This document shows, in pieces, positions 169 through 22,720 of a stretch of 64,000 bases of DNA. The stretch's first letter is position 1; each line of letters begins with the position of its first letter. Below the pieces are notes generated by a model. It had not been told where the DNA came from. It searched no databases and worked only from the letters and a program-made list of their open reading frames with translations. The stretch is from Xanthobacteraceae bacterium (lineage in GTDB: Bacteria; Pseudomonadota; Alphaproteobacteria; Rhizobiales; Xanthobacteraceae): positions 124,001-188,000 of the forward strand of contig JARLIY010000103.1 in assembly GCA_031291475.1 (NCBI GenBank), given 5' to 3'. A program made the position numbers and the translations under genes.

Positions 169-174
169 TGCAAT

Positions 175-399: not shown

Positions 400-438
400 G
401 GGCAAGGGTCGCAAAATCGGCAAACCCTCTCTATCATA

Positions 439-987: not shown

Positions 988-1000
988 CGATTTCAGCGTT

Positions 1001-1627: not shown

Positions 1628-1932
1628 GAGCCGTCCGATTGCTTGGAAACGATCTAGCCTGCGTACTCATAAAGCACGTTCGCTGCTGCGTCCGTTTTTG
1701 CCCGCTCCCGCCATTATTATTTGCGGCTGTATTAAATCAATTTTGAACGAGGCGAAGCTCAATAAGACTAAAATTACGGCAGTAGCCATTTTGCCGCCGG
1801 GGGGTGAGCCCAATGATCCTGGTGAACAATTTTGACCAGATGGCCATTGCCGAGGCAGTGCATGCAGGTACCGCATGAAAGTGATAGCATCGAATGTAGA
1901 GTGCATCTGCGGACACGTGATGAGGTGACGTA
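1628..1932. other. Intergenic region, AT-richer than surroundings
   Basis: These 305 bases between mobA and the FkbM-type gene contain no convincing gene. The stretch 1700-1800 is clearly richer in A and T than the flanks and holds runs such as TTATTATTT. It could carry promoters for the two divergently read genes, but I cannot pick out a clear -35/-10 pair. Confidence 0.5.
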
Positions 1933-2751: not shown

Positions 2752-2760
2752 AACCGTATC

Positions 2761-3792
2761 CTAATCGCCGCCCGCCAGCACGCGCCCAATCTGTGCCGCC
2801 GTCGGGGTCACGTGATAAAACACCGTGTAGAAGTGGCGCGCCAGCGCGTTGATGTCTTCCGGGAAGCGGTCGGGATAGAAAATCTTCGCGAGCCACCACA
2901 GCCCGATCAGCCGATTGACCGCCGGCGGATAATCGATCCAGCCGAACGGCAGCCGCGGCGCCAAATAGATACGGCCCTTCTCGACCGCGGCGATCGCCGC
3001 CCATGCCGGATCGCTGCGCACGAGCTTGGTGAATTCCCGGTCGCCGGCGATGATGATCTCGGGGTTCCAGGCGGTCACCTGCTCGAGCGTGGCAACGCCG
3101 TGGGCGCCGTGCAGCTCGGCCGCCGCGTTGCGCGCGCCGATAAACTCGATCGGCTCGCTGATCATCGAGCCGCCGAAGCCAGTTTGCAGGCCGCTCTTGT
3201 CGCGGGCGTAATAGACCAGGGGGCGCGCGTCGCTCGGCACTTCCGCGCTGCGTTGCGTGATCGTCGCGATCGTGGTTTCGGCGTAGCGCGCCAGCGTTTC
3301 GGCCTGTTCACTGCGGCCGATGAGGTGGCCGATCGCGCGGTAGGTCGCGCCGATGCGGTCGAGGTGTCCGTCGAGCAGCACGTAGGGAATGCTGCTCTGC
3401 TGCTGCACGCGTTCGGCGAGCGATGAATACGCTTCGCCGGTATTGCTGACGTCGAGGATGAGATCGGGCTTGAGCGCAGCGAGCGCGTCGAGATTGATGG
3501 TGTCGCCGCCGCGGCCGGTGAGCCGTGGAATTTTCGGCAGCGCGGCGCTTTCGGGCAGGAGGAATTCGCGGTCCGCCTGTCCGATCGGTTCCAGCCAGCC
3601 CATGAGCAGGTCGGGTGCGAGCGTATAAAGTTCGACCGCGGCCGGCGGCCCGGCCGGATAGATCCGCATCAGGCGGTCCGACGCCATCACCGTGCGGCCG
3701 GTGGCGTCGGTGATGCTGGCGGCGAAACCATCGCGCGGCGCAACGAGCGCCACCGCGAGGCCGCCGACAAAGGCGCGGCGATCGATCTTCAT
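2761..3792 (-). CDS. Tat-exported periplasmic binding protein of iron-siderophore/cobalamin type
   Basis: The protein has 343 residues with an N-terminal twin-arginine signal (DRRAFVGG followed by a hydrophobic stretch ending near AASIT). The body has the two-lobed helical-backbone layout of FecB/BtuF/FhuD proteins: a D-x-x-GR-T-V strand near residue 28, NLDALAALKPDLI near residues 99-111, and a second lobe with WNPEIIIAGDREF. Such proteins deliver Fe-siderophores, haem or cobalamin to an ABC importer. No FecCD permease or ATPase is adjacent, so it is either an orphan or uses a distant transporter. It reads in the same direction as the AhpD-like gene 9 bases upstream, suggesting co-transcription. 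Confidence 0.85.
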   Translation of the reverse strand: MKIDRRAFVGGLAVALVAPRDGFAASITDATGRTVMASDRLMRIYPAGPPAAVELYTLAPDLLMGWLEPIGQADREFLLPESAALPKIPRLTGRGGDTINLDALAALKPDLILDVSNTGEAYSSLAERVQQQSSIPYVLLDGHLDRIGATYRAIGHLIGRSEQAETLARYAETTIATITQRSAEVPSDARPLVYYARDKSGLQTGFGGSMISEPIEFIGARNAAAELHGAHGVATLEQVTAWNPEIIIAGDREFTKLVRSDPAWAAIAAVEKGRIYLAPRLPFGWIDYPPAVNRLIGLWWLAKIFYPDRFPEDINALARHFYTVFYHVTPTAAQIGRVLAGGD

Positions 3793-3801
3793 CTGTGCAT
3801 C

Positions 3802-4374
3802 TCACTCCGCCTCGGATTCCGGCACCGGGACATCAAACCCATTCAGCGTGACCGAGACGAGGCAATAAAGTCCGACCAGATAGATCAATTCGGCGGCTCC
3901 GTGCCGGCCGAATGCCGCCGCAGCCTGCCGATAGTTCAACTCCGGCAAAGTGCCGTGGTGGAGCAACGCCGAGGCCACATCGTAGGCGATCATTTCTTCG
4001 CGGGTAAGATCGCCGGGACGCTGGCCGGCGACGATGGTCGCGAGCTTGTCGTCGGACAAACCGCGCCGTTCCGCGGCGATGACGTGGGCGTAAAGCTCGT
4101 AGGCGGAGTGAAACGTCGTTCCGGTCACCAGGATCGCCACCTCGCGCACCGTGCGCGGCAACGAGGGCGATACCGAAAGCGCCAAGGTCAGGTCCCAAAT
4201 CGGCTTGCCGAATTTCGGCTCGTGCAGCCATGGATTCCACGGCCCCAGCAGCGCCCCGTTTTCGGCGATCGTCTTGAAGCCCTGGAAGTTCTTTTCGATG
4301 CCCGCGCGCATGTCGTCGTATACGGGCCGTTGTTCCGGGGTGAGGTCGGCCGGAGCGATCAAAGGCAGGCGCAT
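3802..4374 (-). CDS. Carboxymuconolactone decarboxylase (AhpD-like) family protein
   Basis: The protein starts MRLPLIAPADLTPEQRPVYD at 4374 and has 190 residues. The motif EVAILVTGTTFHSAYELYAHVIAAERRGLSD matches the CMD/AhpD helix pair. The usual CxxC of alkylhydroperoxidases is absent: FHSAYELYAH carries no cysteines. It therefore more likely belongs to the decarboxylase-like branch than to the peroxidase branch. The frame is open upstream through the tRNA-Ser gene, but that extension is not coding. It is 9 bases from the downstream binding-protein gene. The substrate cannot be told from sequence. Confidence 0.85.
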   Translation of the reverse strand: MRLPLIAPADLTPEQRPVYDDMRAGIEKNFQGFKTIAENGALLGPWNPWLHEPKFGKPIWDLTLALSVSPSLPRTVREVAILVTGTTFHSAYELYAHVIAAERRGLSDDKLATIVAGQRPGDLTREEMIAYDVASALLHHGTLPELNYRQAAAAFGRHGAAELIYLVGLYCLVSVTLNGFDVPVPESEAE

Positions 4375-4507
4375 GCAATGTCTCCCTGGAGGAATCCGCC
4401 GCTTTAGACAGGTGTGGCCTGTAATGCGCCGCGCAATAGGCAAAAGAGCAAACGTGGCGCGCGGGTTGTCACTCGAAGCCACCTCGCTATATTGCGCTCC
4501 CGTGCCC

Positions 4508-4597
4508 GGAGGGATGGCCGAGTGGCTGAAGGCGCACGCTTGGAAAGCGTGTATACGGGAAACCGTATCGTGGGTTCGAATCCCACTCCCTCCGCCA
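4508..4597 (+). tRNA. tRNA-Ser (anticodon GGA), with encoded CCA
   Basis: This is a class II tRNA of 90 bases. Acceptor GGAGGGA (4508-4514) pairs perfectly with TCCCTCC (4587-4593), followed by discriminator G and encoded CCA (4595-4597). The D arm has GGCCGAGTGGC, the anticodon loop reads CTTGGAAAG with anticodon GGA, and a long variable arm pairs TACGG with CCGTA. The T arm has GGGTTCGAATCCC. Its 3' end is duplicated further along the window (see the att-like repeats), so it appears to be the insertion target for the accessory DNA to its right. Confidence 0.98.
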
Positions 4598-4621
4598 CAG
4601 GCCTTGTTCGCCTTTGTTCGC
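4585..4621 (+). repeat. att-like repeat copy A (tRNA-Ser 3' end and following bases)
   Basis: The last 13 bases of tRNA-Ser plus the next 24 (ACTCCCTCCGCCA followed by CAGGCCTTGTTCGCCTTTGTTCGC, described as two pieces) recur without mismatch at 24335-24371. Shorter or degenerate versions occur near 14920, 30909 and 38764. This is the structure expected of an integration core at a tRNA 3' end, with the intact tRNA as one boundary. Confidence 0.75.
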
Positions 4622-4850
4622 CTTAGAGCGAACTTGGCAAGATAGGGCCGCATCTCGTCGTAGATCGGCGCGGCGCCGAGATCGAAGCGCTCATAGAGCG
4701 AGCGATGCATGATAGCGTTCTTGCTTGGCAGCTTCCGGTTCTGCTTGCTCCATGTCAGGCCGAACAAGGTCGTCAGGATGCCTCAGAGCGCTCTGGCTTG
4801 CTGTCCAGCGGAAACTCGGGACTGTTTGAGATCAAGTTTCCTGCGAATGG
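4622..4850. other. Junction between tRNA and Rut-like module; unrecognised minus-strand frame
   Basis: No intact gene is present. On the minus strand an open frame from about 4767 down to the tRNA encodes a segment with ERFDLGAAPIYDEMRPYLAK that looks protein-like. I cannot assign it to a family, and it runs without a stop into the tRNA. It may be a gene remnant fused to the integration core. Confidence 0.3.
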
Positions 4851-5951
4851 TCAGGCCCCGCCGAGACGGCAGGAGACGCCATACTCCGACATGCGGACCA
4901 ACGTTTTCTTCGCGACAGCTTCCAGATCGTTCACGTAGTCCGGCACAATCAGGATAATCCCATCGAGTTCGTAGTCTATGACGACTTGGGCGATACGTTT
5001 GGCGAGCGAAGCGTATGACCCCACGAACGCTCCCGGCGCAACGGCGCTACGCTTTTCCCTGCCCGCGGCGAGACGCAGCGATGTCGGGCTGACATCTTTA
5101 ATGTTGGGGTTCAGGTTGTATCCCAACGCGATATCATCCAGACATTCGATATCTACGCCTTCGTCGAAGTGATCCTTCCGGTCCTTTGCGTCTTTGTCGG
5201 TCTCGCCGGCGATCAGCGTGACAAGCCCGTAGACCTTTAGGTCTGCCTTGCCCATCGATCGAGCCGTCTGCTTGGCACGTATCGCGTCTGCCTTGTACTT
5301 TGGATCGTCGCTGCCTGAGAGGAACGCGATGTCGCAGTTCTGGACGGCGAATTTGAAGCCCCTCTCCGAGGCACCTGCATTCGCGAGGGGGGGCAAGTGT
5401 GATGGTTTCGGCCCCATCGTGGCTTCCGTCAATTCATAGAACCGGCCCTTGTGCGAAACGATGTCTTCTGTCCAAAGCCGCTTGACGACTTGTATCCACT
5501 CGTCCGCCAGATCGTAGCGTTCGTTATGGTCGAGCCCGTCACGCCAAAGTCCGACATGCGAAAGATCAAGGTAGCTGGAGCCGGTGACTAAATTCAGTCC
5601 GACACGACCCGGACCGATCTGATCCAGGGTCGTCATGATCTTCGCAACGACGGCGGGCGGGTAGATGGTCATGTGGACCGTGCCAAACACCGATATTCTA
5701 TCGGTCGCCTGAAGCAATGCCGCCGTGGTCGTCAAGGATTCCAGTGAACGCATCCAGTGTTCCGAGGGGCCTTTGCGTCCGCGCCAGATGCTAGGGCTGA
5801 GCACGAAGTCGAAACCCAACCCCTCTGCTCCTTTGGTCACCTCAAGCACACGCTGGAACGAGCCGTCCTCCACCGCCGGCGAGTTTATCGAATGAATCCA
5901 CCCGTGATTGCCGACCGGGATGAAGACGCCAGTATCGATCACTTTCGTCAT
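4851..5951 (-). CDS. RutA-like luciferase-family flavin monooxygenase
   Basis: This 366-residue LLM-class flavin-dependent oxidoreductase begins MTKVIDTGVFIPVGNHGWI. That opening, the later VGLNLVTGSSYLDLSHVGLW and the near-terminal GAFVGSYASLAKRI all resemble E. coli RutA, the FMN pyrimidine oxygenase that opens the uracil ring. It is less like SsuD or SfnG. Two-component enzymes of this kind need a flavin reductase; none (RutF-like) lies nearby. The ATG at 5951 is chosen over one 14 codons upstream because homology begins there. The RutC-like gene lies 70 bases upstream on the same strand. The true substrate may be a pyrimidine-like or other cyclic amide (inference). Confidence 0.8.
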   Translation of the reverse strand: MTKVIDTGVFIPVGNHGWIHSINSPAVEDGSFQRVLEVTKGAEGLGFDFVLSPSIWRGRKGPSEHWMRSLESLTTTAALLQATDRISVFGTVHMTIYPPAVVAKIMTTLDQIGPGRVGLNLVTGSSYLDLSHVGLWRDGLDHNERYDLADEWIQVVKRLWTEDIVSHKGRFYELTEATMGPKPSHLPPLANAGASERGFKFAVQNCDIAFLSGSDDPKYKADAIRAKQTARSMGKADLKVYGLVTLIAGETDKDAKDRKDHFDEGVDIECLDDIALGYNLNPNIKDVSPTSLRLAAGREKRSAVAPGAFVGSYASLAKRIAQVVIDYELDGIILIVPDYVNDLEAVAKKTLVRMSEYGVSCRLGGA

Positions 5952-6021
5952 GTCTTTGAAGCTCTGCAACTGGATGATTAGTAAAGCGCGCACGCAACTC
6001 CGCTTTGGGATCGTTCAGGGT

Positions 6022-6468
6022 TTATTTCTTGGCATTGGGAATCACTGCGCTCGGATTGATGACTACATTGGGCGCATAGGCAATGGCATCGATCTCAATC
6101 AAGAGTTCGGGAAGAATCAGCGCGGCGACTTTCACTCCGGTGCTCGCGGGACGATGTGTTCCGAAGAACTCCCGTCTTACGTCCCAGTACTTGTTTATCT
6201 GCTCCATATCGTCGAACGACACCGTGAAGTAGTTGGTCAGGCGAATGACAGAGGTGAGATCGCAGCTGGCAAGACTGAGGACCCTGCGCATAATAGTAAA
6301 GACTTGCCTGGCTTGAGCCTGAATATCGCCTGCACCAACGACTTTTCTGTTTTCGTCTAGCGCGACAATACCGGTGAGCCAAAGGAAATCGCCGGCTTTT
6401 ACCATATGGCACATCGGTGAATCTTCTCTCCAGCGAATGTCGTCTTTGAAAAACAGGGGATCGTTCAT
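6022..6468 (-). CDS. RutC-like member of the RidA/YjgF family
   Basis: The protein has 148 residues starting MNDPLFFKDDIRWRED, with a GAAAGGA ribosome site 8 bases before the ATG. The fold markers are AGDFLWLTGIVALDENRKVV, QARQVFTIMRRVL and the closing LLIEIDAIAYAP. At the position of the imine-deaminase arginine of true RidA (usually VARLPK near the end) it has VAALILP, so that arginine is missing. From memory, E. coli RutC also lacks it, which together with the adjacent RutA-like gene favours a RutC-type role in processing the ring-opened product. It is transcribed away from the deacetylase operon and towards the rutA-like gene. Confidence 0.8.
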   Translation of the reverse strand: MNDPLFFKDDIRWREDSPMCHMVKAGDFLWLTGIVALDENRKVVGAGDIQAQARQVFTIMRRVLSLASCDLTSVIRLTNYFTVSFDDMEQINKYWDVRREFFGTHRPASTGVKVAALILPELLIEIDAIAYAPNVVINPSAVIPNAKK

Positions 6469-6867
6469 GTAGACTATCCTTTCACTGGTATTTGAGAGCG
6501 CGCACTTTCCGCGACGCACATGGTGGAGAGCCGCTTCCATCGAGACCTGCAAGATTCATGCATCATCTTGTGTGACAGTCATTCGACGGGCCGGACCGTA
6601 GCGACAACCGTTCCCAAAAGGAAAGTCTCGCACCGGATAACGCGGGGCTGTGAAATAAGTGCGGGGACAGTCGCCTTGTCCGGCAGCTGGACTGATACGG
6701 CGGCCGATCACTCGCAGCGCCCCGATGCCTTGTCTCTCAAACGGTGTTCAGTGCATCTCATTGGAAGAGCGGCCGCACCACGCCCAGTAGATGGTAGCGC
6801 AATTAGTCCTTGGCGGCAGCTTATATTATCGACTAGGCTTGCCTGTAACGCAGGATACGGTCAGTCA
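6469..6867. promoter_or_regulatory. Divergent intergenic region between the RutC/RutA-like pair and the deacetylase-transport operon
   Basis: These 399 bases separate two outward-reading operons and must hold both promoters. No gene is recognisable, although the plus-strand frame stays open upstream of 6868. An AT-rich patch with TATATTATC around 6820-6830 is a plausible -10 region for the rightward genes. No clear operator palindrome was found and no regulator gene sits beside it. Confidence 0.5.
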
Positions 6868-7725
6868 ATGTCAAAGCGGCCCCGCTTCCCGCGCCAGTGG
6901 TCTTGGCCGGACAATGGGAAAATTGCGTTCAGCGTCGGCATTCCGTTCGAAGCATTCGAGAAGCAAAGCCAGGTCAATTTTGTTGCCGCCAAGGGCGTTT
7001 TGGATCGGTTCTCGCTGTCCTATGGCGACTATGGCTGGAAAGCAGGAATCTGGCGCCTTTTGAATCTCCTCGACGAGTACGGCCTCAAAGCTTCGGTTTC
7101 CGCCAACGGCCTCGCTGCCGAGCGCCATCCGGACATCATTAGAATGCTGGCGCAGGACGGCCACGAAGTGAATGGCCACGGCTGGGCGAACGATGTTTAC
7201 GCAAAGGATGCTTCGCCCGAGCTGGAACGCGCAGAGATTGCACGCTGTACCAAAATGCTCACCGAAGCGACCGGCGGCGTGCGGCCGGTGGGATGGACAA
7301 GTCCGGGATCGAGCGGATCGGACTTCACGATCGAATTTCTTGCCGAGCAGGGATACATTTGGCTCGGCGACGACGCGAGCGATGATTTGCCGTTCGTCCA
7401 ACAAACCAAAAGCGGTCCGTTCGTCATTCTCCCAAGAACCAATATAAGCACCAACGACATCTCGGCGTGGATATTCCCGGCCAATCCGCCGAGCGTCTTT
7501 TTTGAAAACTTCACTGAGACGTTCGATCAGCTCTATCGCGAAGGCAACGAGGGCGCACCGAAGTGGCTCAGCATGACTTTGCATGCTCATATGGCGGGAC
7601 GGCCGACCTTCGCTTCGACGGTTCGCCGTTGCCTCGGCTACGTCAAGAAGCACGACGGCGTGTTTTACACACGCAATCGCGATATAGCCGAGTGGACGCT
7701 TAAAAACCAAAAAGCTACGGCGTAA
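6868..7725 (+). CDS. PuuE-like polysaccharide-deacetylase-fold (NodB-type) amidase
   Basis: This 285-residue protein resembles the PuuE/allantoinase branch of the carbohydrate esterase 4 fold. It has GIPFEAFEKQ near residue 24, an ASVSANGLAAERHPDIIRML strand-helix, VNGHGWANDVYAKD with the fold histidine (His104), VGWTSPGSSGSD, and a C-terminal LHAHMAGRPTFASTVRRCLGY matching the LHxxxxGRPxR segment of PuuE. PuuE-type proteins hydrolyse cyclic amides rather than acetyl sugars. Here it could open or trim the product of the RutA-like enzyme, in place of RutB (inference). The ATG at 6868 is used; the 116 residues upstream in frame look non-coding. The broken SDR follows after 2 bases. Confidence 0.75.
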   Translation: MSKRPRFPRQWSWPDNGKIAFSVGIPFEAFEKQSQVNFVAAKGVLDRFSLSYGDYGWKAGIWRLLNLLDEYGLKASVSANGLAAERHPDIIRMLAQDGHEVNGHGWANDVYAKDASPELERAEIARCTKMLTEATGGVRPVGWTSPGSSGSDFTIEFLAEQGYIWLGDDASDDLPFVQQTKSGPFVILPRTNISTNDISAWIFPANPPSVFFENFTETFDQLYREGNEGAPKWLSMTLHAHMAGRPTFASTVRRCLGYVKKHDGVFYTRNRDIAEWTLKNQKATA

Positions 7726-7727
7726 GA

Positions 7728-8138
7728 ATGGCATTGGACGGTCAGTTGGCGTTGGTGACCGGCGGTGCGGCCGGCATCGGCGCGGCAATTACACGGCCTC
7801 TTGCCGAGGACGGCGCTGATGTTGCCGTCGTCGATATCTCCTCCACCGCCGACGAGGCTATTGAAAAACTCTCGGTGCGGCCGGGTCAGCGCGTCAAGTC
7901 ATGGCACTGCGACGTGAGCAAGCCTGCGGAGGTGTCCTCGACCTATGACACCATTCGCCGCGAACTTGGCGATCCGACAATCTTGATTAATAATGTCGAC
8001 GGCAGCGGGCACTGCAAGTATGTGCACAATTGGTCGACGGGCGATCTCCTGATCTGGGGTAATTTGTTGCTGCAGCACGCGCGTTTGCCATTCGATTCGA
8101 ATGAACCGCACACCCTGCGTCGGACGCCGATCATTTGA
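7728..8138 (+). pseudogene. Short-chain dehydrogenase, truncated
   Basis: The first 85 or so residues are a normal SDR start: ALVTGGAAGIGAAI carries the TGxxxGIG nucleotide motif at residues 11-17, VVDISS follows beta-2, and HCDVSKPAEV is the usual adenine-ring segment. After DPTILINN the sequence loses all similarity, with VDG replacing the NAG motif. It stops at 136 residues with no catalytic Ser or YxxxK, where an intact SDR would have about 250. It is probably a deletion remnant inside the operon rather than a working enzyme. Transcription probably continues into livH. Confidence 0.75.
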
Positions 8139-8177
8139 CATCAGGCGTTGCGGACGCGAGCAAGCTTCGAAAATCGC

Positions 8178-9053
8178 ATGCAGTGGAGTTCAGATATCGC
8201 GCAGGTAGCCGCAAGCGGCCTGTTGATGGGCCTTGCCTACGCGCTTGTCGCTGTCGGCTTTACCATCGTCTTCGGGGTAATGAACGTCGTCAATTTCGCC
8301 CATGGCCATATCGCCATGGCGGCGATGTTCGCGAGTTTTGTGCTGAACCGCTACCTCGGGCTTGATCCTTACATCGCAGCTTTATGCCTGTTTCCGATTT
8401 TTCTTGTCGTTGGCGCGCTTCTTTATCACACGTCGATAGCACCGGCCGTTGGTGCAAGTCCGGCGACACAAATGCTGGTCACACTTGGTCTGCTGATCGT
8501 GATTGAGAACACCGCTAACCTCATTTTCGGCGGCGATTTGCGCAGCGTTCGCTCGCCGATCGGCGAGGGTTCCTTGCATCTCGGCGCCTTGGTGCTACCG
8601 ATGTCGCGCGTGCTTGCGGCGGTCGGTAGCCTGCTCGCTATTGCCGCGCTATGGGCGTTTCTGCGGTTCACTCGGTTTGGCAAGGAAATTCGCGCCGCTG
8701 CCAGTAACGAACTCGGTGCGCGTCTGGTCGGCATACCAATCCAACGCGTATTTATCCAGGCATTTGCGCTTGCAACCGCGATGGCAGCGTTTGCCGGCGC
8801 GATGCTGGTGCCTTTTTATCTGATCAATCCGTTTATTGGTTACGATTTCATGCTCAAAGCGTTCGTGATCGCGATCATCGGCGGTCTTGGCAGTCTACCG
8901 GGTGCGGTCCTGGCAGGCTTGATCATCGGCGTGGTCGAGGCATTCGGCGATTTTTATCTGACCGCGTCGTACGCGACCGCTCTCGTGTTCGGCCTTCTGA
9001 TGCTCGTACTCCTGTTTAGGCCGGCGGGTCTGATGGGTTCGTTTCGCTCGTGA
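8178..9053 (+). CDS. LivH-type ABC transporter permease (module 1)
   Basis: This 291-residue inner-membrane permease of the branched-chain amino acid/amide importer family opens with GLLMGLAYALVAVGFTIVFG. It has the LivH signature MNVVNFAHGHIAMAAMF, and ends with the cytoplasmic-loop motif IIGGLGSLPGAVLAGLIIG and a last membrane helix. The ATG at 8178 is chosen; a TTG at 8148 is also in frame. It overlaps livM by 4 bases, so translation is coupled. Liv-type systems in soil alphaproteobacteria import amino acids, amides, urea and aromatic acids; the partner genes here suggest the Rut-like substrate or a related amide (inference). Confidence 0.92.
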   Translation: MQWSSDIAQVAASGLLMGLAYALVAVGFTIVFGVMNVVNFAHGHIAMAAMFASFVLNRYLGLDPYIAALCLFPIFLVVGALLYHTSIAPAVGASPATQMLVTLGLLIVIENTANLIFGGDLRSVRSPIGEGSLHLGALVLPMSRVLAAVGSLLAIAALWAFLRFTRFGKEIRAAASNELGARLVGIPIQRVFIQAFALATAMAAFAGAMLVPFYLINPFIGYDFMLKAFVIAIIGGLGSLPGAVLAGLIIGVVEAFGDFYLTASYATALVFGLLMLVLLFRPAGLMGSFRS

Positions 9054-10024
9054 GCGCAGCCGGAAAACCATCTCCATCAGCGCTGGTGGTTGCCGCAATT
9101 GCGGTAGCCGTCGCGCTTGCGGTGGTGTTTCCGTTTTTTGTTCGCCAACAGATGGTGGTCGCCGGCACATTCGTTTTGTTCAGTTGTTATCTTGCCCAGT
9201 GCTGGAATCTGGCGGCCGGCTATGCCGGCCAATTCTCCCTTGGTCATACCGTCTTTCTTGCCGTCGGTGCCTATACCTCCACTGTTCTGTTTCGTGACTA
9301 CGCCGTTTCGCCCTGGATCGGCATGTGGGTTGGTGCAGGCCTGGCGGCGCTTCTTGGCGCGGTTCTATCGGCCGTGGCGTTTTGGTATCGCGTCCGCGGC
9401 GTCTTTTTTGCCGTTATCACCCTTGGCTCTGTCGAAGTGTTTCGCGGTCTTTTTTCCGAGTTTGACATTCTTGGCGGCACCGCCGGCATCTTCCTGATCT
9501 CGGCAAACGACCCGGTGAACATGAATTTCCTCTCGCGCATTCCGTATTATGAAATTATCTTGGCGTTGGTCGTTCTGGCGGCAGCGGGAACGTTTTGGCT
9601 TGAGCGCTCGCGCCTCGGTCAATACGCGATGGCCTTGCGCGAAGATGAAGAGGCGGCCGAAGCGAGCGGCGTTCCGACCTTTCGCTGCAAGATCGTCGTT
9701 ATTGCAATAAGTGCCGCAGCCACGGCGCTTGCCGGCACCTTCTATGCGCAATTTCTGCTCTTCATCGTACCTGAGACGCTGTTTTCCTTCGATCACATGC
9801 TCAACATGATGCTGGGCACGATCGTCGGCGGCAGCGGAACAATCCTCGGACCGATTGTCGGCTCGCTGCTATTCGGCGTTCTTGGTGACGTGTTGCGCTC
9901 CTTGCCTGTCGTAAATTCGCAGGAGGCGGCAAGCTTGGTGCGGATCGGCTATGGATTGTTTCTGATCGTCGTAGTGCTGCGAATGCCGCGAGGCATCGTC
10001 AGTCTTTGGGAACGGCGGAACTGA
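9050..10024 (+). CDS. LivM-type ABC transporter permease (module 1)
   Basis: The protein has 324 residues and starts with GTG inside the livH stop (GTGA overlap). It has the LivM pattern: CWNLAAGYAGQFSLGHTVFLAVGAY for the first conserved loop, VRGVFFAVITLG in the middle, and MLGTIVGGSGTILGPIVGSLLFG as the EAA-like loop that contacts the ATPases. About eight hydrophobic segments are visible. It pairs with LivH at 8178-9053 and hands over to livG with a one-base overlap. Confidence 0.92.
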   Translation: MSAAGKPSPSALVVAAIAVAVALAVVFPFFVRQQMVVAGTFVLFSCYLAQCWNLAAGYAGQFSLGHTVFLAVGAYTSTVLFRDYAVSPWIGMWVGAGLAALLGAVLSAVAFWYRVRGVFFAVITLGSVEVFRGLFSEFDILGGTAGIFLISANDPVNMNFLSRIPYYEIILALVVLAAAGTFWLERSRLGQYAMALREDEEAAEASGVPTFRCKIVVIAISAAATALAGTFYAQFLLFIVPETLFSFDHMLNMMLGTIVGGSGTILGPIVGSLLFGVLGDVLRSLPVVNSQEAASLVRIGYGLFLIVVVLRMPRGIVSLWERRN

Positions 10025-10752
10025 TGAGCGATCTTCTGCAGATCGAGAGAATAGGTAAACGCTTTCGCGGTCTTAAAGCGCTTGACGACGTGTCTTTTAG
10101 TGTCGAGGAGGGCGGTATCTTCGGCATTATCGGTGCCAACGGCGCCGGCAAGACCACGCTGTTCAATATCATTTCCGGAGCGATCAAGCCGGATGTCGGC
10201 ATTGTGCGCTTTGCCGGCGTTGACGTCACCGGCCGAGCGCCGAGCCGCCTCTGCATAGCCGGGATTGGCCGGACGTTTCAGATCGCTCGTCCATTTCCGG
10301 ATTTGACGGTGCTGGAAACGATCCGCGTTGCGGTTCTGTGTCGCGTTCACGCCATGCGCGCGGCGACGGAACGAGCTGTCGCGATCGCGCATCGGTTCGG
10401 CCTTGCGCAAAAGCTCGATCGCCGAGGACGACATCTCAACGTGCTGGAGCGAAAGCGTCTCGAGCTGGCGCGAGCTTATGCCACGGGACCACGCTTGCTG
10501 CTGCTAGACGAGGTGGCGGCCGGCCTTCGTCCAAGCGAAGTGGACGTCTTTGTCGATATTGTTCGCGCCGTCGCATCCGAAAACATCACGGTTCTCATGA
10601 TCGAACACGTGCTCGCCGCGGTGTTCGCCTTGGCCAGGCGCGTGGTTGTTCTCGACCAAGGCAAAACGATAGCGGATGGCACGCCACAGGCCGTTGCGGC
10701 CGATCCTAAAGTCGTCGAAGCCTATCTGGGCGCCGGCTATGCCGCTCCTTGA
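10024..10752 (+). CDS. LivG-type ABC transporter ATP-binding protein (module 1)
   Basis: This 242-residue ATPase has Walker A GANGAGKTT (about residues 37-45), the Liv-specific AGIGRTFQIARPFPDLTVLE, and Walker B LLLLDEVAAGL, in which the residue after DE is V where P is usual. The C-terminal GTPQAVAADPKVVEAYLG is typical of LivG. The ABC signature region reads LNVLERKRLELARA rather than LxxGxxR; this glycine-poor form is unusual and could weaken ATPase coupling. The ATG overlaps the livM stop by one base (TGATG) and the frame overlaps livF by 14 bases. Confidence 0.9.
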   Translation: MSDLLQIERIGKRFRGLKALDDVSFSVEEGGIFGIIGANGAGKTTLFNIISGAIKPDVGIVRFAGVDVTGRAPSRLCIAGIGRTFQIARPFPDLTVLETIRVAVLCRVHAMRAATERAVAIAHRFGLAQKLDRRGRHLNVLERKRLELARAYATGPRLLLLDEVAAGLRPSEVDVFVDIVRAVASENITVLMIEHVLAAVFALARRVVVLDQGKTIADGTPQAVAADPKVVEAYLGAGYAAP

Positions 10753-11473
10753 AATCAAAGATTTGACGGCAGGGTATGGCGACGTGGATGTTCTCCACGG
10801 CGTATCGCTGACGGTGGAGGAGGGCGAGATCGTCTCCTTGGTGGGTGCCAACGGCGCCGGCAAGACCACATTGCTGCGTGCGATCTCGGGCGTGGTTCGC
10901 TCGCATGGGTACGTCGGTTTTCTCGGTTCAACCATTAGTGGATTGCCGTCGCACGACATCGTATCGCGAGGCATCGCTCATGTGCCGGAAGGCCGTGAGC
11001 TCTTTTCCGATATGACGGTCCTCGAAAACCTTTTGATAGGGGCGCCCCGTGGGCTGCCGCGCCACGAGGTGGCACGGAGGCTTGACGATATTTGGTCGTT
11101 GTTCCCGCGTTTGGCGGCACGACGAGACCAATACGCGGGGACACTGTCGGGCGGTGAGCAGCAGATGGCGGCCGTCGGCCGGGGGCTGATGCTGCATCCG
11201 AAGCTTCTGATGCTGGATGAGCCGTCGCTTGGACTCTCTCCCGCGATGGTGACCCATATTTTCGACGCCATCACGTCGGCCAACCGTGGCGGCATGGCTG
11301 TTTTGGTCGTTGAGCAGAATGTCGTGGAATCCCTGCGGCGGTCGCACCGCGGCTATGTGTTGGAGACCGGCAGCATGGTTGCGGAGGGGGAGGCGACTGC
11401 TCTATTAGAGAATGAACGCCTGCGCAGCGCTTTCCTCGGCGCCCTCTCGCACGTCCCAGCCGCAAGCGCATAA
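10739..11473 (+). CDS. LivF-type ABC transporter ATP-binding protein (module 1)
   Basis: This 244-residue protein starts MPLLEIKDLTAGYGDVDVLHGVSL. Walker A GANGAGKTT, the Liv F-type GIAHVPEGRELFSDMTVLENL, signature LSGGEQQM and Walker B LLMLDEPSLGLSP are all intact. Its ATG lies inside the end of livG, indicating coupled translation. It forms the ATPase heterodimer with LivG and is followed 11 bases later by the binding-protein gene. Confidence 0.93.
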   Translation: MPLLEIKDLTAGYGDVDVLHGVSLTVEEGEIVSLVGANGAGKTTLLRAISGVVRSHGYVGFLGSTISGLPSHDIVSRGIAHVPEGRELFSDMTVLENLLIGAPRGLPRHEVARRLDDIWSLFPRLAARRDQYAGTLSGGEQQMAAVGRGLMLHPKLLMLDEPSLGLSPAMVTHIFDAITSANRGGMAVLVVEQNVVESLRRSHRGYVLETGSMVAEGEATALLENERLRSAFLGALSHVPAASA

Positions 11474-11484
11474 CGGAGAGCATC

Positions 11485-12738
11485 ATGTCCAGAATTCCGC
11501 GATCCTTTGGGAGCGATATCCACCGCCGCAGCATTTTGGTCGGCGGCGGCGCGTTTGTGGCAAGCTTCGGCATGCCGACAATTGTGCGCGCGGCAGACGA
11601 AATCCTGGTCGCGGGCATTCTGCCGCTGACCGGACCCAGCGCGCAATTCGGTCAGCAATCATGGAAAGCGATGCAGTTCGCGGTCGATTTGATGAATGAG
11701 GCGGGCGGCGTCAAATCGATGGGCGGCGCTAAGCTGATCTTGGCGGTGTTCGATACAGAAACGAAACCTGAGATTGCGGTCACGCAAACTGAAAATGCGA
11801 TCCAACGCGGCGCCAAAGCCTTGATTGGTTGCAATCAGAGCGCCGCGACCATCGTCGCCAGCCAAGTCTCCGAGCGCAATGAAGTGCCATTTTTGACGGC
11901 CTACGATATCGATCCGACCATTACCGCGCGCGGTTTCAAGTACATATTCCGCTGCTCGCCACTGACCGGAAACTATGCAAGCGATTTGCTGACCACAGCC
12001 AAGGAGCTTATAGACAAAGCCGGCAGTTCGGCGAAGCGCGTCGGTTTGTTGAGCGAAAATTCCGTCGCCGGGCAAGGCGTGAACAAGGCTTTGACGGCGG
12101 TGGCGCAGAAGCTCGGCTTGGAGCTCGTCTATGCCGAAACTTACGACGTCGGCACCACGCAAAATTTTGCGCCTTTCATTACCAAGATGAAGGCCAATCG
12201 CGTCGACATCATGGTCGGCCAGAATCGCGTCAGCGACGGTATCCAGATTACACGTACCGCCAAAGAGCTGGCTTACAACCCATCGTTCATGGGCGGCGTG
12301 CTCGGCGCACCGATCACGCGCGAGTATATCGAAGCGCTGGGCAAGGATGCCGACAACGTCTTCGGTACCGATAGCTTCTCGCCGGCGCTGAACGCGCCCG
12401 GACTTCCGGCTGTCGTCGAGCGCGTCAAGGTCAAGATGAACCGCGTTATGGACGTTGGCGTTGCAACGATCATGGCGGATATTGCCGTCATATGGGACGC
12501 GCTTGAGCGCGCCAAGACCTCGGATCCTCGGGCGCTTCGCGATGCCATCGCGAGCACGGACCTCAATACCGGCGACCGCAATTTCTTCATGTTGCGCGGC
12601 GCGAAGTTCAGCGACAAGGGCGACAACGAAAAGGCTGCCGGCATCGTCACCCAAATCCAAAACGGCCTAGCTGTTCCGGTTTGGCCGGTTGAGTTTGCGA
12701 AAGCGCAGGCCGTCTATCCAAAGCCAGAGTGGAATTGA
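11485..12738 (+). CDS. Liv-type periplasmic binding protein (module 1)
   Basis: This 417-residue type I periplasmic binding protein has a twin-arginine-like signal (HRRSILVGGGAFVASFG, cleavage near VRAADE). The mature part begins ILVAGILPLTGPSAQFGQQ, the standard opening of amide/branched-chain amino acid receptors. LIGCNQSAATIVASQVSERNE and the later IMVGQNRVSDG follow the LivJ/AmiC fold. CGGAGAG precedes the ATG. It is the last transport gene of the 8.2-12.7 kb importer and sits directly before two hydrolases, so its ligand is probably processed by them (inference). Confidence 0.9.
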   Translation: MSRIPRSFGSDIHRRSILVGGGAFVASFGMPTIVRAADEILVAGILPLTGPSAQFGQQSWKAMQFAVDLMNEAGGVKSMGGAKLILAVFDTETKPEIAVTQTENAIQRGAKALIGCNQSAATIVASQVSERNEVPFLTAYDIDPTITARGFKYIFRCSPLTGNYASDLLTTAKELIDKAGSSAKRVGLLSENSVAGQGVNKALTAVAQKLGLELVYAETYDVGTTQNFAPFITKMKANRVDIMVGQNRVSDGIQITRTAKELAYNPSFMGGVLGAPITREYIEALGKDADNVFGTDSFSPALNAPGLPAVVERVKVKMNRVMDVGVATIMADIAVIWDALERAKTSDPRALRDAIASTDLNTGDRNFFMLRGAKFSDKGDNEKAAGIVTQIQNGLAVPVWPVEFAKAQAVYPKPEWN

Positions 12739-12777
12739 TCGACAACGTTCTTGCGAGTAAGGAGTGACTTGTCCCCA

Positions 12778-13695
12778 ATGAACTATCATTCCGCGTCCCC
12801 CGCCGCGTTGCCGCCGGCAAAGACCATCGATATCGAGGGGATCAAAACGTCCTACCACGTCGCCGGCACTCGCCAGCCGATCGTTTTCATCTATGGCGGA
12901 AACTTCGGAACGGCCGATTCCGCGCCGAGCGCACACGCATGGAATCTAAATTTCGTGCCGCTGGCGGAACGGTTTCAGGTGATCGCGTTCGACAAGATTG
13001 GCCAAGGATTTACCGGCAATCCGCTACGTGACGAGGACTACAGCATGGCGGCGGTGGTTCGGCATGCCGCCGCCTTTATTAAGACGCTTGGCATTCCGCC
13101 AGCTCACATAGTTGGCCATTCCCGCGGCGGCTATGCAGGCGCGCGTCTCGCGTTGGAATATCCGCACCTGGTTCGATCGTTGACAATTGTCTCGAGCGGA
13201 ACGCTGTCGCCGCGCGTGAGCACCAATGAAGTTGCGCTATCCAAATGCCCGCACCCGCCATATACCCGCGAAAGTGCGCGTTGGATTTACGAAGGTTACT
13301 GCTTTAGCCCCAAAAGCGTCACTGACGAGTGGATCGAAAAGGTTTACGAGGTCCTGCAGTTGCCCAAGTACCGCGAAAGCGTACGCAAAATGGTCGATGA
13401 GCAGCTTGGTACACGCGTTTTTCTGCCGGAACTTGCCAAGCAAAAGCGCGAAACCCTGCAGTGGTTACGGGAGGGTCGTCTGCAAAGGCCGACCCAGGTG
13501 GTGTTTGGCCGGAACGACCCAACCGTGGCGATTGAGGGGGCATTCGATTTGTTTGATGCCGTTGCCGCCCACCAGCGCAAGACGGAACTGCACATCTTCA
13601 ACCAGGCGGGCCATTTCAGCTACCGCGAGCATCCGGAGCGCTTCAACGCGCTGCTCGGCGGTTTCGTCGGTCTGATCGATAGGTGGTCAGAGTGA
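12778..13695 (+). CDS. Alpha/beta hydrolase of MhpC/RutD type
   Basis: The protein has 305 residues. The oxyanion loop is IYGGNFG near residues 38-44, the nucleophile elbow is GHSRGG (Ser115), the acid is in FGRNDPTVA (Asp247) and the base is in QAGHFSYREHP (His279), so the triad is complete. The layout matches C-C hydrolases (MhpC, BphD) and RutD-type amide hydrolases. Lying beside RutA/RutC-like genes it may play the RutD part. The start is set at ATG 12778; the AAGGAG at 12759-12764 is 13 bases away, and a TTG at 12769 is an alternative. The stop overlaps the next gene by one base. Confidence 0.82.
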   Translation: MNYHSASPAALPPAKTIDIEGIKTSYHVAGTRQPIVFIYGGNFGTADSAPSAHAWNLNFVPLAERFQVIAFDKIGQGFTGNPLRDEDYSMAAVVRHAAAFIKTLGIPPAHIVGHSRGGYAGARLALEYPHLVRSLTIVSSGTLSPRVSTNEVALSKCPHPPYTRESARWIYEGYCFSPKSVTDEWIEKVYEVLQLPKYRESVRKMVDEQLGTRVFLPELAKQKRETLQWLREGRLQRPTQVVFGRNDPTVAIEGAFDLFDAVAAHQRKTELHIFNQAGHFSYREHPERFNALLGGFVGLIDRWSE

Positions 13696-14594
13696 TGGCC
13701 TCTTTGAACCTTCAGACCAAAACACTCGGAAGCCGGCGGACGCGCCTTTTGCGCGGCGGCAAGGCAGGGGCACCCGCCGCGCTCTTTCTCCATGGCGGCA
13801 TCCCGGGCGCGACACTATTCTGCTCTGGCGCGCATATCTGGGGTGAGAGCCTTTTGTCGTTTGCCGAGGAGCTCGACGTCATCGCGCCCGATTGTCCCGG
13901 GAGCGGCGGGACCGATTTGGGTGAAGAACCTTTGACGGTCGAAGCCATCGGCTCTTTCGCCGTCGCGCTGTTGGCCGATTCTGGCGTCACATCGGTCGAA
14001 GTCGTCGGTCACGACATCGGAGGATTGGTCGGCATTTGGCTGGCGTTGAACCATCCAAAGACCGTCCGCTCCCTGTCGATCGTCGCAAGCCCAATGAGCG
14101 CGCCGGTCGGCGATGCGCTTGACGATATCTTGCTCGTTGCGCCGCCCCGTTCTTTGTGGAGCCGCGAATCGCAAGCCTGGGCGCTGGAGCGCCTGTCCTA
14201 TAGCCACATGCATATCGATCGGACGTTGCTAGATGCCTGTGTTGCCGCGAGCGACGGCGAGCCGCATCGCCACGCGGTGGCTATGGCCAAGACGAGCTCG
14301 GCAAAAACGCTCGGTGGGAGCATGAGCCGCACGCGGTCGCTGTTGTGGGAAGCCTGCCGCAATGCCGGCGTGCAAGTGCCTGTTCAAATCGTTTGGGCAA
14401 GCCACGATCCGGTGACGACGCGGGAAGCAGGTTTTGTGCTCTACGACACCATTGCTGCCAAACAGCGCGCCTCGCAATTCCACGTCATCAATCGCGCCGG
14501 CAGCCTGGTGTTTCGCGAACAGCCGTCGGCATTTCACCATGTCGTAGCGTCGTTCGGTCGCGGCGTTCGCGACGAAAAAGCGCGCGCCGCTTAA
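13695..14594 (+). CDS. Alpha/beta hydrolase homologue with altered catalytic triad
   Basis: This 299-residue protein is similar in plan to the preceding hydrolase and is translationally coupled to it (TGATG). Its nucleophile elbow reads GHDIGG, with Asp107 where hydrolases have Ser. Asp nucleophiles are normal in haloalkane dehalogenases and epoxide hydrolases. The acid Asp238 (ASHDPV) is present. The base is not: the segment that reads NQAGHFSYRE in its neighbour reads NRAGSLVFRE here, giving Ser270 in place of His. An Asp nucleophile without the histidine cannot complete the usual cycle, so this may be a non-hydrolytic partner or a decayed duplicate. It is the last gene of the operon. Confidence 0.78.
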   Translation: MASLNLQTKTLGSRRTRLLRGGKAGAPAALFLHGGIPGATLFCSGAHIWGESLLSFAEELDVIAPDCPGSGGTDLGEEPLTVEAIGSFAVALLADSGVTSVEVVGHDIGGLVGIWLALNHPKTVRSLSIVASPMSAPVGDALDDILLVAPPRSLWSRESQAWALERLSYSHMHIDRTLLDACVAASDGEPHRHAVAMAKTSSAKTLGGSMSRTRSLLWEACRNAGVQVPVQIVWASHDPVTTREAGFVLYDTIAAKQRASQFHVINRAGSLVFREQPSAFHHVVASFGRGVRDEKARAA

Positions 14595-15196
14595 AGTTGC
14601 TGTCTCGCGGCACGTATCAGGTAATTCCCTGACTCAGTGCGGGGCCGCTATCGCGGATTTACTTCTGCGCCGCCGCTGACAAGTTTGCGAGCTGGCACGG
14701 CCCGATATTCGATGCGGCCGTAAGGAGCCGGCATTTGGCAGTTCTAACCTTTCAGGGCAGGCAGCGAGACAGTATCGAATTATGCAAACGTTACTGTCCC
14801 CTGACGTTCGCCACCGTTCGCTGCAATCCGGCGATTCTTCGTGGGTAAATTTGTAGGTGCGCAACAAGGCGGATTCGTAATCGATTGATATTCCCTCGCA
14901 ATTGCTACTTTTATGCAGACAGTCCCTCGGCCAGGCGCCCTGTTCGCGGCCGTTCGCCGGCGGCCGCAATTATCCACATAAGCAATTGAATTAGGCGGAC
15001 TTTCCGGCTAAAAATGCGTTCGCAGCCGTCCGCCACGGATCGCCTCAATCCGGCATCTCCTTGTGGAAGATTTTGTGGGACGACCGTTCTTTCGCACTAA
15101 GTGACGCGATCGGCCAGAGCAGAAGCTGCTAGGCATGGTTCTTCGCCCGCTACGCGCACGCTCGCTCACAGCGGGCGGCGCTAGTGGTGCGCTGAC
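14595..15196. other. Gene-free region carrying att-like repeat B and a second decayed copy
   Basis: No gene is supported across these 602 bases. The first half contains repeat B (14801-14957). The stretch 15011-15090 is a weaker relative, recognisable by CAATCCGGCATCTCCTTGTGG and GATTTTGTGGGA. The rest, near 15120-15196, holds nothing I can identify. This gap separates the Rut-like module from the PPK2/exporter module. Confidence 0.6.
14801..14957 (+). repeat. att-like repeat copy B (degenerate)
   Basis: The order of blocks is the same as in copies C, D and E: CTGACGTTCG, GCTGCAATCCGGCGATTCTT, CGTGGGTAAATTTG, GATTGATATTCCCTCGCAAT, TGCAGACA, and then GTCCCTCGGCCAGGCGCCC in place of the tRNA end CTCCCTCCGCCACAGGCC. 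The tRNA-derived part has diverged here, so this copy looks oldest. Same orientation as the tRNA gene. Confidence 0.75.
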
Positions 15197-16003
15197 TCAG
15201 AATTTCTCGGGAACGAAGTTTAGTTTCCGCAACGATGCCTGATCGTCGTATTTTTTTTTAGTGGAACGTTTTGGTAGTTTGACCTTCGGTCGCGATACTT
15301 TCCTATATGGAACGAGCTCGAGAATTTTCGAGATGCAATTGAGGCGCCCGCGTCTCTTATCGTCAGATCTAACGATATGCCACCGTGCGTACTCGACGTC
15401 GGTGGCTTTTAACATGGCGTCGCGAGCTCTCGAATAATCGTACCAGCGCCGATAAGATTCCAGATCCATCGGACTCAACTTCCATTGTCGAAGCGGATCG
15501 TTGAGGCGCGCGTGAAACCGCCTTTCCTGTTCTTCTTGCCCGACTTCCATCCAAAATTTGATCAGAATGATGCCCGCGTCGGTGATGTATTTTTCGATTT
15601 CTGGGCAGAGGCTGAGGAAGCGATCCACCTCCTTCGCACCGGCAAATCCCATGACCCGCTCGACGCCCGCGCGATTGTACCAGCTCCGATCGAAAATAAC
15701 GATTTCGCCGGCTGCAGGAAAATGCTCGACGTAACGCTGCAAAAACATTTGCGTCTTTTCACGATCGGAAGGCGCGGGCAGCGCCACAAGCCTGAAGACA
15801 CGCGGGCTCACTCTTTCGGTTATTGCTTTGATCGTTCCGCCCTTGCCGGCGGCGTCGCGACCCTCGAACAAAATGATGATTCGTTGCCCTTCGGCTTTTA
15901 CCCAATCCTGCACATAGCAAAGCTCAACTTGGAGCTTGCGGAGCTCCTTTTCATAGTGCTTTCGCTTCATCTTGCCGTTGTCGGCCTGTTTGACTCGAAT
16001 CAT
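15197..16003 (-). CDS. ppk2: Polyphosphate kinase 2 (PPK2 family)
   Basis: This 268-residue cytoplasmic enzyme transfers phosphate between polyphosphate and nucleotides. Walker A is ILFEGRDAAGKGGTIKAI (core near residues 48-57), the lid and Walker B region is EIVIFDRSWYNRAGVERVMGF, and SPMDLESYRRWYDYSRARD is the PPK2 C-terminal helix motif. The length and the single domain suggest a class I-type PPK2. It begins 5 bases downstream of the exporter permease stop, so it probably shares a transcript with the exporter genes. Its C-terminus is lysine-rich. Confidence 0.95.
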   Translation of the reverse strand: MIRVKQADNGKMKRKHYEKELRKLQVELCYVQDWVKAEGQRIIILFEGRDAAGKGGTIKAITERVSPRVFRLVALPAPSDREKTQMFLQRYVEHFPAAGEIVIFDRSWYNRAGVERVMGFAGAKEVDRFLSLCPEIEKYITDAGIILIKFWMEVGQEEQERRFHARLNDPLRQWKLSPMDLESYRRWYDYSRARDAMLKATDVEYARWHIVRSDDKRRGRLNCISKILELVPYRKVSRPKVKLPKRSTKKKYDDQASLRKLNFVPEKF

Positions 16004-16008
16004 TTGGG

Positions 16009-17193
16009 TTAGCTCCCAAAAATAACGCGCCGGAAGCGGCTCATGGCCAGCGCAAAATAGACCGAGCCGATGATCGACATGGCGAGCAGCGGCCGCCAGA
16101 CCAATGTGATATCGGCACCGCGGAACAGCACCGCCTGTGCAAAGGCAACAAAATGCGGCGTCGGGCTAATGGTCCGCATCGTATATTGGAGCCACACCGG
16201 CATGCTCTCCATCGGCGTGCTGGAACCCGACAGAAGTTGCGTCACCATCAAGACCGGCATCGCCAAGAGCCCGAATTGACCCATGGTCGTGGCGAGCGTA
16301 CCGAGCAGGATGCCGAGCGCGGCCACGACCAGCGCATAAAGAGCTGCGCCGAGAAGGAACAAAAAGATCGAGCCGTTGATCGGCGCGCCGATCCACAGAT
16401 GCACCACGAATTGCAGCGACAGCATCGCCGCCACCAGGATGACGAGACCGTTGGCGAACATCTTTGCCAGCATAATTTCGGCCGGCACTACCGGCATCAC
16501 CAGGAGATGTTCCACCGTCCCTTGCTCACGCTCGCGAATCAGCGCGGCGCCGGTCAAGATCACGGTCAGCAGCGTGATCTGATTGATCACCTGCGTCATC
16601 GCCGAAAACCACGCAGTCTTCAGGTTCGGGTTGAACTTGGCGGTGACGACGAGATTGATCGGATCGATCGGCGGCCGTCCGCGCTGGGTCAGGAAAGTTT
16701 GCACCTCGTTGGCGAAGGCGGTCTTCAGATAATTGGCGCCGTTGCCGGCCTGCGCCACGGCGGTGGCATCGACATTGATCTGAACCTCGGTCTTGCGTTC
16801 AGCGAGAATGTTGGCCTGGAAATTCGGAGGAATTTCTGCCACCAGCAACAATTCGCCCTCGTCCATTTTCGTGTCGATTTCGGGCGCGGTTATCTGCACG
16901 GCGGGCTGGAAGGTCGGCCGCGTCAGCCCGGCCGCGATCTGCCGCGACAATTCCGAGCCGTCCTCGTCGACAATGCCGACCGACAGATTGGTCGCTTCCG
17001 TCACCGCCCCGGTCGCCACCGTATTGACGGAAATGCTGAAGGCATAAACCACCAGCACCAGCATCGTCGGATCGGCGCGGATGCTGCGCAACTCCTTGAT
17101 GACCAGGCGAAAAATGTTCACCACATGGTCGCGCAAAGTCATCGTTTTTGCTTCGGCGAGCTTCACGGTCGGGGGCGCGGCAGGCGAAGACAT
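16009..17193 (-). CDS. yhhJ: YhhJ-like ABC-2 exporter permease
   Basis: This 394-residue membrane protein of the ABC-2 type has an N-terminal helix (VVYAFSISVNTVATGAV), a large periplasmic domain, then five helices. The conserved GAALIREREQGTVEHLLVMPV coupling segment and QLLSGSSTPMESMPVWLQYTM mark the YhhJ/YbhR family. The start ATG at 17193 is preceded by AGGAGA. It starts only 2 bases after the RbbA-like stop and forms an exporter with the two genes upstream. Confidence 0.9.
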   Translation of the reverse strand: MSSPAAPPTVKLAEAKTMTLRDHVVNIFRLVIKELRSIRADPTMLVLVVYAFSISVNTVATGAVTEATNLSVGIVDEDGSELSRQIAAGLTRPTFQPAVQITAPEIDTKMDEGELLLVAEIPPNFQANILAERKTEVQINVDATAVAQAGNGANYLKTAFANEVQTFLTQRGRPPIDPINLVVTAKFNPNLKTAWFSAMTQVINQITLLTVILTGAALIREREQGTVEHLLVMPVVPAEIMLAKMFANGLVILVAAMLSLQFVVHLWIGAPINGSIFLFLLGAALYALVVAALGILLGTLATTMGQFGLLAMPVLMVTQLLSGSSTPMESMPVWLQYTMRTISPTPHFVAFAQAVLFRGADITLVWRPLLAMSIIGSVYFALAMSRFRRVIFGS

Positions 17194-17195
17194 CT

Positions 17196-20998: not shown

Positions 20999-21135
20999 TT
21001 GTAGTTTCCTTTGAAATTTCTCCAACGGAATAATGTGTAACACACACTGCCGACGCGCCAAATCGCAATCGGTGCGACTCCCTGCGGCCGCGACCTGATA
21101 TTCGCACTTTCCAAGCCCTTGGCGTTCACCTGCAG

Positions 21136-22626: not shown

Positions 22627-22720
22627 TCCGATCCTCCGTGCGGCGTTTTTCGTCATCTCATTCCGTCATTTGCCCTTTTTTACTCGACTTTTTTGTTATC
22701 GCAGATCGATTTCCTTTATT

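Follow-up and report, generated by a model that had tools for sequence, protein, structure and literature searches.

The closest described counterpart of the locus reported here is the Rut pathway of Escherichia coli (rutABCDEFG), a route for uracil. RutA-type enzymes combine reduced flavin mononucleotide (FMN) with O2 into a flavin-N5-peroxide, which reacts with an electrophilic carbon, breaking a carbon-heteroatom bond (PMC7662398, PMC8283759). Their dioxygen reactivity motif has been described as F/L, T/S, NxV, A and F/L/Y, and DszA and other enzymes have it in common with RutA (PMC8234197). Residues T105, N134 and W139 follow the numbering of RutA, in which Trp139 is described as bordering the substrate-side cavity (PMC10005588). 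RutC, a Rid-family protein, requires Arg104 for its 3-aminoacrylate deaminase activity, and as far as the same source reports, Rid subfamilies 4-7, which are without that arginine, have shown no deaminase activity so far (PMC8113886).

We analysed a stretch of 64,000 nucleotides from a Xanthobacteraceae bacterium (contig JARLIY010000103.1, positions 124,001 to 188,000), referred to below as the window. It contains genes for a RutA-like luciferase-family monooxygenase (LLM) and a Rid-family protein, next to genes for a PuuE-type protein, a Liv-type importer and two hydrolases. We favour, with moderate confidence, the interpretation that these genes are two adjoining units in an acquired island, namely an LLM-Rid core and a separate, divergent catabolic operon. 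A preliminary description, made from the sequence alone, had read them as one Rut-like locus; its observations were confirmed, and its interpretation was partly supported. The features are as follows.

4508..4597, plus strand: tRNA-Ser (GGA), detected with ARAGORN; likely insertion point of the island
4585..4621, plus strand: 37-bp direct repeat made up of the tRNA-Ser 3' end and flank; identical copy at 24335-24371
4851..5951, minus strand: RutA-like LLM, 366 amino acids; Bac_luciferase, dioxygen motif kept, Ser in place of Trp139
6022..6468, minus strand: Rid-family protein, 148 amino acids; Ser where RutC/RidA have the catalytic Arg
6868..7725, plus strand: polysaccharide-deacetylase (NodB)/PuuE-type hydrolase, 285 amino acids; below the PuuE allantoinase cut-off
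7728..8138, plus strand: likely remnant joining a short-chain dehydrogenase/reductase (SDR) and TauD; start of adh_short, then the end of TauD
8178..9053, plus strand: LivH-type permease; BPD_transp_2
9050..10024, plus strand: LivM-type permease; BPD_transp_2
10024..10752, plus strand: LivG-type ATPase; open reading frame (ORF) judged by eye, without family search
10739..11473, plus strand: LivF-type ATPase; ORF likewise judged by eye, without family search
11485..12738, plus strand: periplasmic binding protein (LivJ role); Peripla_BP_6
12778..13695, plus strand: alpha/beta hydrolase 1; Abhydrolase_1, Ser-Asp-His triad complete
13683..14594, plus strand: alpha/beta hydrolase 2; Abhydrolase_1, Asp for the nucleophile, Ser for the catalytic His

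The LLM and Rid genes are divergent from the plus-strand set, in agreement with the preliminary description. All operon genes that it named were found; the remnant ORF at 7728-8138 had been overlooked, and hydrolase 2 lacks two of its three triad residues. Position 4622, given there as the start of the locus, is the first base after the repeat at the tRNA-Ser end and not a gene start.

The presence of a RutA-like LLM was borne out. RutA was its top match among solved structures in a PDB search (E 3e-51, the best non-RutA match having 5e-27) and its best NCBIfam model (TIGR03612). The latter score, 213.8 bits, is far under the equivalog cut-off of 498.3, so the LLM is not a RutA equivalog; two RutA rows run as controls gave 508.7 and 642.7 bits. 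Thus, the LLM resembles RutA (TIGR03612; PDB 5WAN, 6SGG, 6SGL) in its alignment over residues 6-350 of 367 and in the dioxygen motif, but differs from it by this score, by Ser in place of Trp139 and by its position in a separate clade. A structure model built from a four-row alignment had a mean predicted local distance difference test score of 49.9, too low for a fold search.

Relatives of the LLM were drawn from plasmid records (77 matched at E 1e-30, of which 16 were taken, including all seven of at least 44% identity), from three near-identical loci at 74% and from one genome of the order. In the resulting 25-row tree, rooted on the SfnG-like rows, the LLM and 11 relatives formed a clade of their own (support 98/98), apart from the four RutA rows (99/98) and from four SfnG-like same-genome paralogues (100/100), which are themselves under the SfnG cut-off. 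An SfnG or SsuD identity of the LLM was rejected on its scores, 125.5 of 382.95 bits for SfnG and 85.4 of 518.2 bits for SsuD, and on its separate branch in a tree that holds SfnG-like rows and no SsuD, DszA or NtaA row. The LLM therefore stands apart from dimethyl sulfone- and alkanesulfonate-type enzymes, as far as the four SfnG-like rows and the SsuD-type models, which score below RutA, represent these; grouping with them had been named in the preliminary description as a result that would speak against it. The closest neighbour of the clade, with weak support (76/80), is a branch that holds four further LLMs from plasmids (loci L045-L048; loci are designated by L and a number). An isochorismatase-family gene is annotated at L046 and L048 and a 'cysteine hydrolase' at L047, L045 being unannotated; L047, on a Paraburkholderia plasmid, and L048, on an Acinetobacter plasmid, have flavin reductase genes too, and L048 also an M20 peptidase.

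Alignment showed the dioxygen motif of the LLM to be intact: L, T105, N134xV (as NLV), A and F, where the L, A and F positions are those that we take to be the ones meant in the published motif. Position 139 is Ser in the window LLM and Ser or Gly in all 12 clade rows; the clade and the branch of four have in common that this residue is small (Ser, Gly or Ala). All four RutA rows, L049 and all four SfnG-like rows have Trp there. Taking Trp139 as RutA-defining was our choice, based on the RutA rows; E292 of RutA was discarded as a marker, as it is variable among these rows. The LLM would use the same O2 chemistry as RutA, which fits the kept motif, and the LLM-Rid pair probably functions in the manner of RutA. 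Judged from sequence, its substrate is perhaps different from uracil.

The preliminary description had also noted that the RutC-like protein is without the RidA arginine, and the window Rid indeed has Ser at the column of RutC Arg104. It is like RutC and RidA (TIGR03610, TIGR00004) in family and in linkage to a RutA-like gene, but differs from them by this Ser and by its scores below cut-off (51.2 of 169.1 bits for TIGR03610 and 59.7 of 106.25 bits for TIGR00004). Every one of the 12 clade loci, that is the window and 11 others, contains one Rid with Ser at this column. Its gene adjoins the LLM gene in 10 of the 12, and is offset by ∼2.4 kb in L014 and by ∼6.7 kb in L017. Five loci (L013, L015, L016, L017 and L054) have an additional, Arg-bearing Rid. 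Pairwise identities of LLM and Rid were correlated (r 0.765 over nine rows, the near copies L010, L011 and L054 having been dropped), and only eight of 5000 permutations gave a value as high. Linkage in all clade loci together with the correlated identities indicates that the LLM-Rid pair is a conserved unit. The window Rid was unmatched in 11 hydrolase-centred control loci of 18.4-19.0 kb each; because the same query misses E. coli RutC in L051, this control speaks for window-like Rid proteins only. We met no RutA-like plus Rid module in the open-access literature, a weak negative since subscription papers were mostly outside coverage.

Because the arginine is lost, we do not expect the window Rid to deaminate enamines as RutC does. 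It would act after the LLM, on the product of the latter, which may be a different intermediate from that of RutC, or it may have another role. Rid proteins generally go with nitrogenous intermediates. A nitrogen heterocycle as substrate is favoured because of the Rid partner and because some relatives have RutC-like Rid proteins, RutD-like hydrolases and aminohydrolases.

The neighbourhoods of the 11 related loci, spans of 13-21 kb around the clade LLMs, were compared with the window by tblastn (E 1e-5) and blastp (E 1e-4). PuuE, LivM and LivJ were matched in none of the 11 by either method; LivG and LivF were matched, as any ABC ATPase would be. It is therefore the LLM-Rid pair, and not the larger module of the preliminary description, that is conserved in these loci; a module not conserved elsewhere was the other result that the description had named as speaking against it. 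Near the pair, a flavin reductase match (query, the reductase of L012) was present in 10 of the 11 loci, L016 being the miss. BMP-type importers were found in L015, L017 and L054 by annotation and in L016 by BLAST, major facilitator superfamily (MFS) transporters in L013 and L014, and aminohydrolases in L015, L016 and L054. Alpha/beta hydrolases are annotated close to the pair in L012-L017. The LLM-Rid clusters of L012 and L014 each include a PDR/VanB-type reductase and a Rieske oxygenase, the latter being VanA-type in L014; riboflavin biosynthesis genes and a formaldehyde dehydrogenase are present in the L012 cluster as well.

The surroundings of the locus point to acquisition. The 37-bp repeat at 4585-4621 consists of the last 13 bases of the tRNA-Ser and 24 more, and recurs unchanged at 24335-24371. 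A copy of the tRNA-Ser (GGA) that is 95.6-100% identical is present in 16 congener loci, in each of which the 90 bases after the tRNA differ by eye from those of the window; in these flanks, part of the repeat is present in L060 and L063, and L065 and L070 start alike. The G+C content is below the 0.635 of positions 1-4500, being 0.581 over 4622-14594 and 0.586 over 4622-24334. In whole-genome samples, matches to the LLM were obtained in two of 297 genomes of the order, its own included (E 1e-60), and in one of 20 genomes of the genus, its own (E 1e-50); eight of these 20 reach at least 90% completeness with no more than 5% contamination. Since the tRNA-end repeat recurs, the LLM is unmatched in the 19 congeners at E 1e-50, and flanking DNA and G+C content differ, the locus is most likely an acquired segment at a tRNA hot spot. 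It thus combines a tRNA 3'-end repeat with strain-specific content, the latter as judged from the LLM and the binding protein. No integrase was found among the ORFs scanned, which were part of the total. Nor was an integrase remnant found beside the tRNA, where 4621-4767 gave no match to Pfam or PHROGs.

The second unit would consist of the PuuE-type hydrolase, the Liv importer and the hydrolase pair, and would have originated separately; the SDR-TauD remnant would be what is left of one of its genes. The PuuE-type protein is like PuuE allantoinase (TIGR03212; PDB 3CL6) over residues 47-275, but differs from it in scoring 143.4 bits against a cut-off of 424.6; other matches in the sampled genomes are at most 40% identical. 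Matches occur in 114 of the 297 genomes of the order (E 1e-30), at most 38% identical save the window's own, and in five of 349 genomes of a phylum sample (E 1e-40, own included), the others being 37-40% identical. A Streptomyces plasmid, the sole match among plasmids at E 1e-40, was discarded, as its neighbourhood is not in common with the window. The importer has the make-up of a Liv-type system, with two BPD_transp_2 permeases, a Peripla_BP_6 protein and two ATPases, the last recognized by eye. Its binding protein was found in its own genome alone (one of 297 in the order at E 1e-75, one of 248 in the family at E 1e-60), in searches that score the best six to seven candidates per genome and over samples with many draft genomes. 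Neither it nor the second hydrolase was matched in the plasmid search.

Residues 7-91 of ORF 7728-8138 match adh_short (profile positions 2-86 of 195) and residues 96-133 match TauD (229-266 of 267). Searched alone, the TauD end matched 5BKE, a dioxygenase of 2,4-dichlorophenoxyacetate (2,4-D; E 0.001), and PvcB (E 0.002); the row that ranked first in this search (9.5e-5) is a repeat protein whose score comes from many weak matches to its repeats. This in-frame ORF is likely what remained when DNA between the genes of an SDR and a TauD protein was lost; the alternative is that the junction was wrongly assembled.

The two hydrolase genes overlap. By eye, hydrolase 1 has the complete Ser, Asp and His triad. 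In hydrolase 2 Asp replaces the nucleophile and Ser the His, which leaves one of the three residues, and by sequence this protein probably lacks esterase activity. Monoalkyl phthalate hydrolases (PDB 8HGV, 8HGW) are the nearest solved relatives of both (E 7e-41 for the first and 2e-22 for the second), from which the second differs in having neither the catalytic Ser nor the His. At E 1e-42, relatives of hydrolase 1 were found in six of 318 genomes of the class, its own included. Tandem hydrolases of the window type occur in Sagittula, Ponticoccus and other genomes (L055, L056, L098, L100, L101 and L102). ABC importer genes are annotated beside them in L055 and L056, and matches to those are present in L100 and L102; in L101 the tandem lies ∼5 kb from Liv-type matches, and L098 has no importer match. 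That such hydrolase-importer contexts exist elsewhere suggests a catabolic unit in its own right. The second tandem hydrolase of L055 and L056 likewise carries Asp for the nucleophile, with the His retained. Scans of the locus gave five promoter-like sites against 3.8 in shuffled sequences and 22 terminator-like sites against 13.2, and were not used.

Several observations weigh against the two-unit interpretation or the RutA-like role of its core. The divergent layout would permit co-regulation of LLM-Rid with the second unit. LivH, unmatched in all 11 related loci by tblastn, gave weak blastp matches in L016 (43.1 bits), L017 (36.2) and L054 (35.0); these three loci bear BMP-type importers. 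The dioxygen motif discriminates weakly, because the four SfnG-like rows depart from it solely by Val for Leu at position 65, the first of the motif. RutA is described as contacting pyrimidine or uracil with very few side chains (PMC7662398), and a change from Trp139 to Ser need therefore not alter the substrate. We met no known substrate and no assay data for any enzyme of the LLM clade. NMT1/THI5-type binding proteins, which would suit a sulfonate, lie near LLM-Rid in L009, L012, L015 and L016, and three of these neighbours match SsuA below its cut-off (77-94 of 163.5 bits). Finally, no PF01613 reductase is present on the window contig. Two were found in the genome by a search that did not extend to the PF03358 type, and because both are on other contigs, the supply of a flavin reductase from elsewhere, as the preliminary description had supposed, is possible.

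The alternative that fares best, although we consider it unlikely, is the integrated pathway of the preliminary description, in which the Liv system would import a cyclic amide, the LLM would open it, the PuuE-type protein would replace RutB and the hydrolases RutD. All genes lie within 10 kb, in divergent arrangement and on one repeat-bounded segment, and the alpha/beta hydrolases near the pair in L012-L017 would fit as well. The window is like the E. coli Rut pathway in having RutA-type and Rid-type genes together; it differs in that its Rid is without the Arg and in that RutB-, RutE-, RutF- and RutG-type proteins were unmatched among the nine window proteins scanned (the remaining two genes are ATPases by eye). 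Against an integrated pathway, the window hydrolases are closer to monoalkyl phthalate hydrolases than to the hydrolases of the relatives (hydrolase 1 is 22-33% identical to five of the six compared, with no value for L014), and one operon gene is broken. As the PuuE-Liv part is missing from the 11 loci, where LivH is weakly matched in three, and the binding protein was unmatched in the other sampled genomes at the thresholds applied, a single Rut-like pathway was rejected as the principal interpretation.

That the LLM is instead a group C monooxygenase cleaving a C-S or other carbon-heteroatom bond, as in a sulfonate or sulfone, is improbable. DszA and others have the same dioxygen motif (PMC8234197), and the NMT1/SsuA-like binding proteins of the relatives are consistent with it. 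However, the tree sets the LLM apart from the SfnG-like paralogues, and the Rid partner in 12 of 12 loci, with the general association of Rid proteins with nitrogen, the second, Arg-bearing Rid of five relatives and the aminohydrolases of L015, L016 and L054 all argue for a nitrogenous substrate. A decaying relic without present function, to which the SDR-TauD remnant, the degenerate hydrolase 2, the contig without a PF01613 reductase and the congeners without an LLM match could be ascribed, is very improbable given that the reading frames of the LLM, the Rid, the PuuE-type protein, LivH and the binding protein are uninterrupted and have normal lengths, and that the LLM motif is kept.

If the two-unit interpretation is correct, the reaction of RutA would be separated from uracil in a RutA-like clade with a linked, arginine-less Rid. 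In this clade the importers next to the LLM-Rid pair are of at least three types other than Liv, namely NMT1, BMP and MFS, and a conserved pathway partner would make the pair a concrete system for finding the activity of Rid subfamilies without the Arg. In one branch, formed by L016 and by L015 of Rhizobium daejeonense with its near copy L054, thiaminase II-type genes and NMT1-type or 'thiamine biosynthesis' genes adjoin the pair. The TenA model gave 124.0 bits on the L015 gene, slightly below the cut-off of 130, and L016 also has a PRK08596 match annotated as N-formyl-aminopyrimidine deformylase. The same branch also has an aminohydrolase, a RutD-like hydrolase, a gene of the aldo/keto reductase type and a RutC-like Rid with the Arg. 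This gene content suggests, purely as a hypothesis, a thiamine-derived pyrimidine as substrate in this branch, which would be deaminated to a 4-oxo ring, opened oxygenolytically and followed by deamination of the product. More broadly, LLM and arginine-less Rid may together serve oxygenolytic opening of nitrogen heterocycles outside the uracil route, with the L016/L015/L054 branch degrading the pyrimidine half of thiamine and the window branch another cyclic amide, the Rid reaction being other than enamine deamination; we advance this tentatively and regard it as rather doubtful in its entirety. Pyridine ring cleavage by PyrA-type enzymes was considered as a parallel and not used.

In addition to the two identical copies of the 37-bp repeat, shorter similar copies are present near 30910 and 38765, and the array gives the impression of catabolic segments having been inserted one after another at a single tRNA. 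The second inter-repeat segment (24372-30909) encodes another importer of the Liv type and a binding protein, in ORFs within 24378-29139, and, at 29209-30519, a Rieske/LigXa-type oxygenase. The third (∼30925-38764) contains an extradiol-dioxygenase-like gene (31057-32085), a Meth_synt_2 gene (32162-33283) and an MFS transporter gene (34544-35887).

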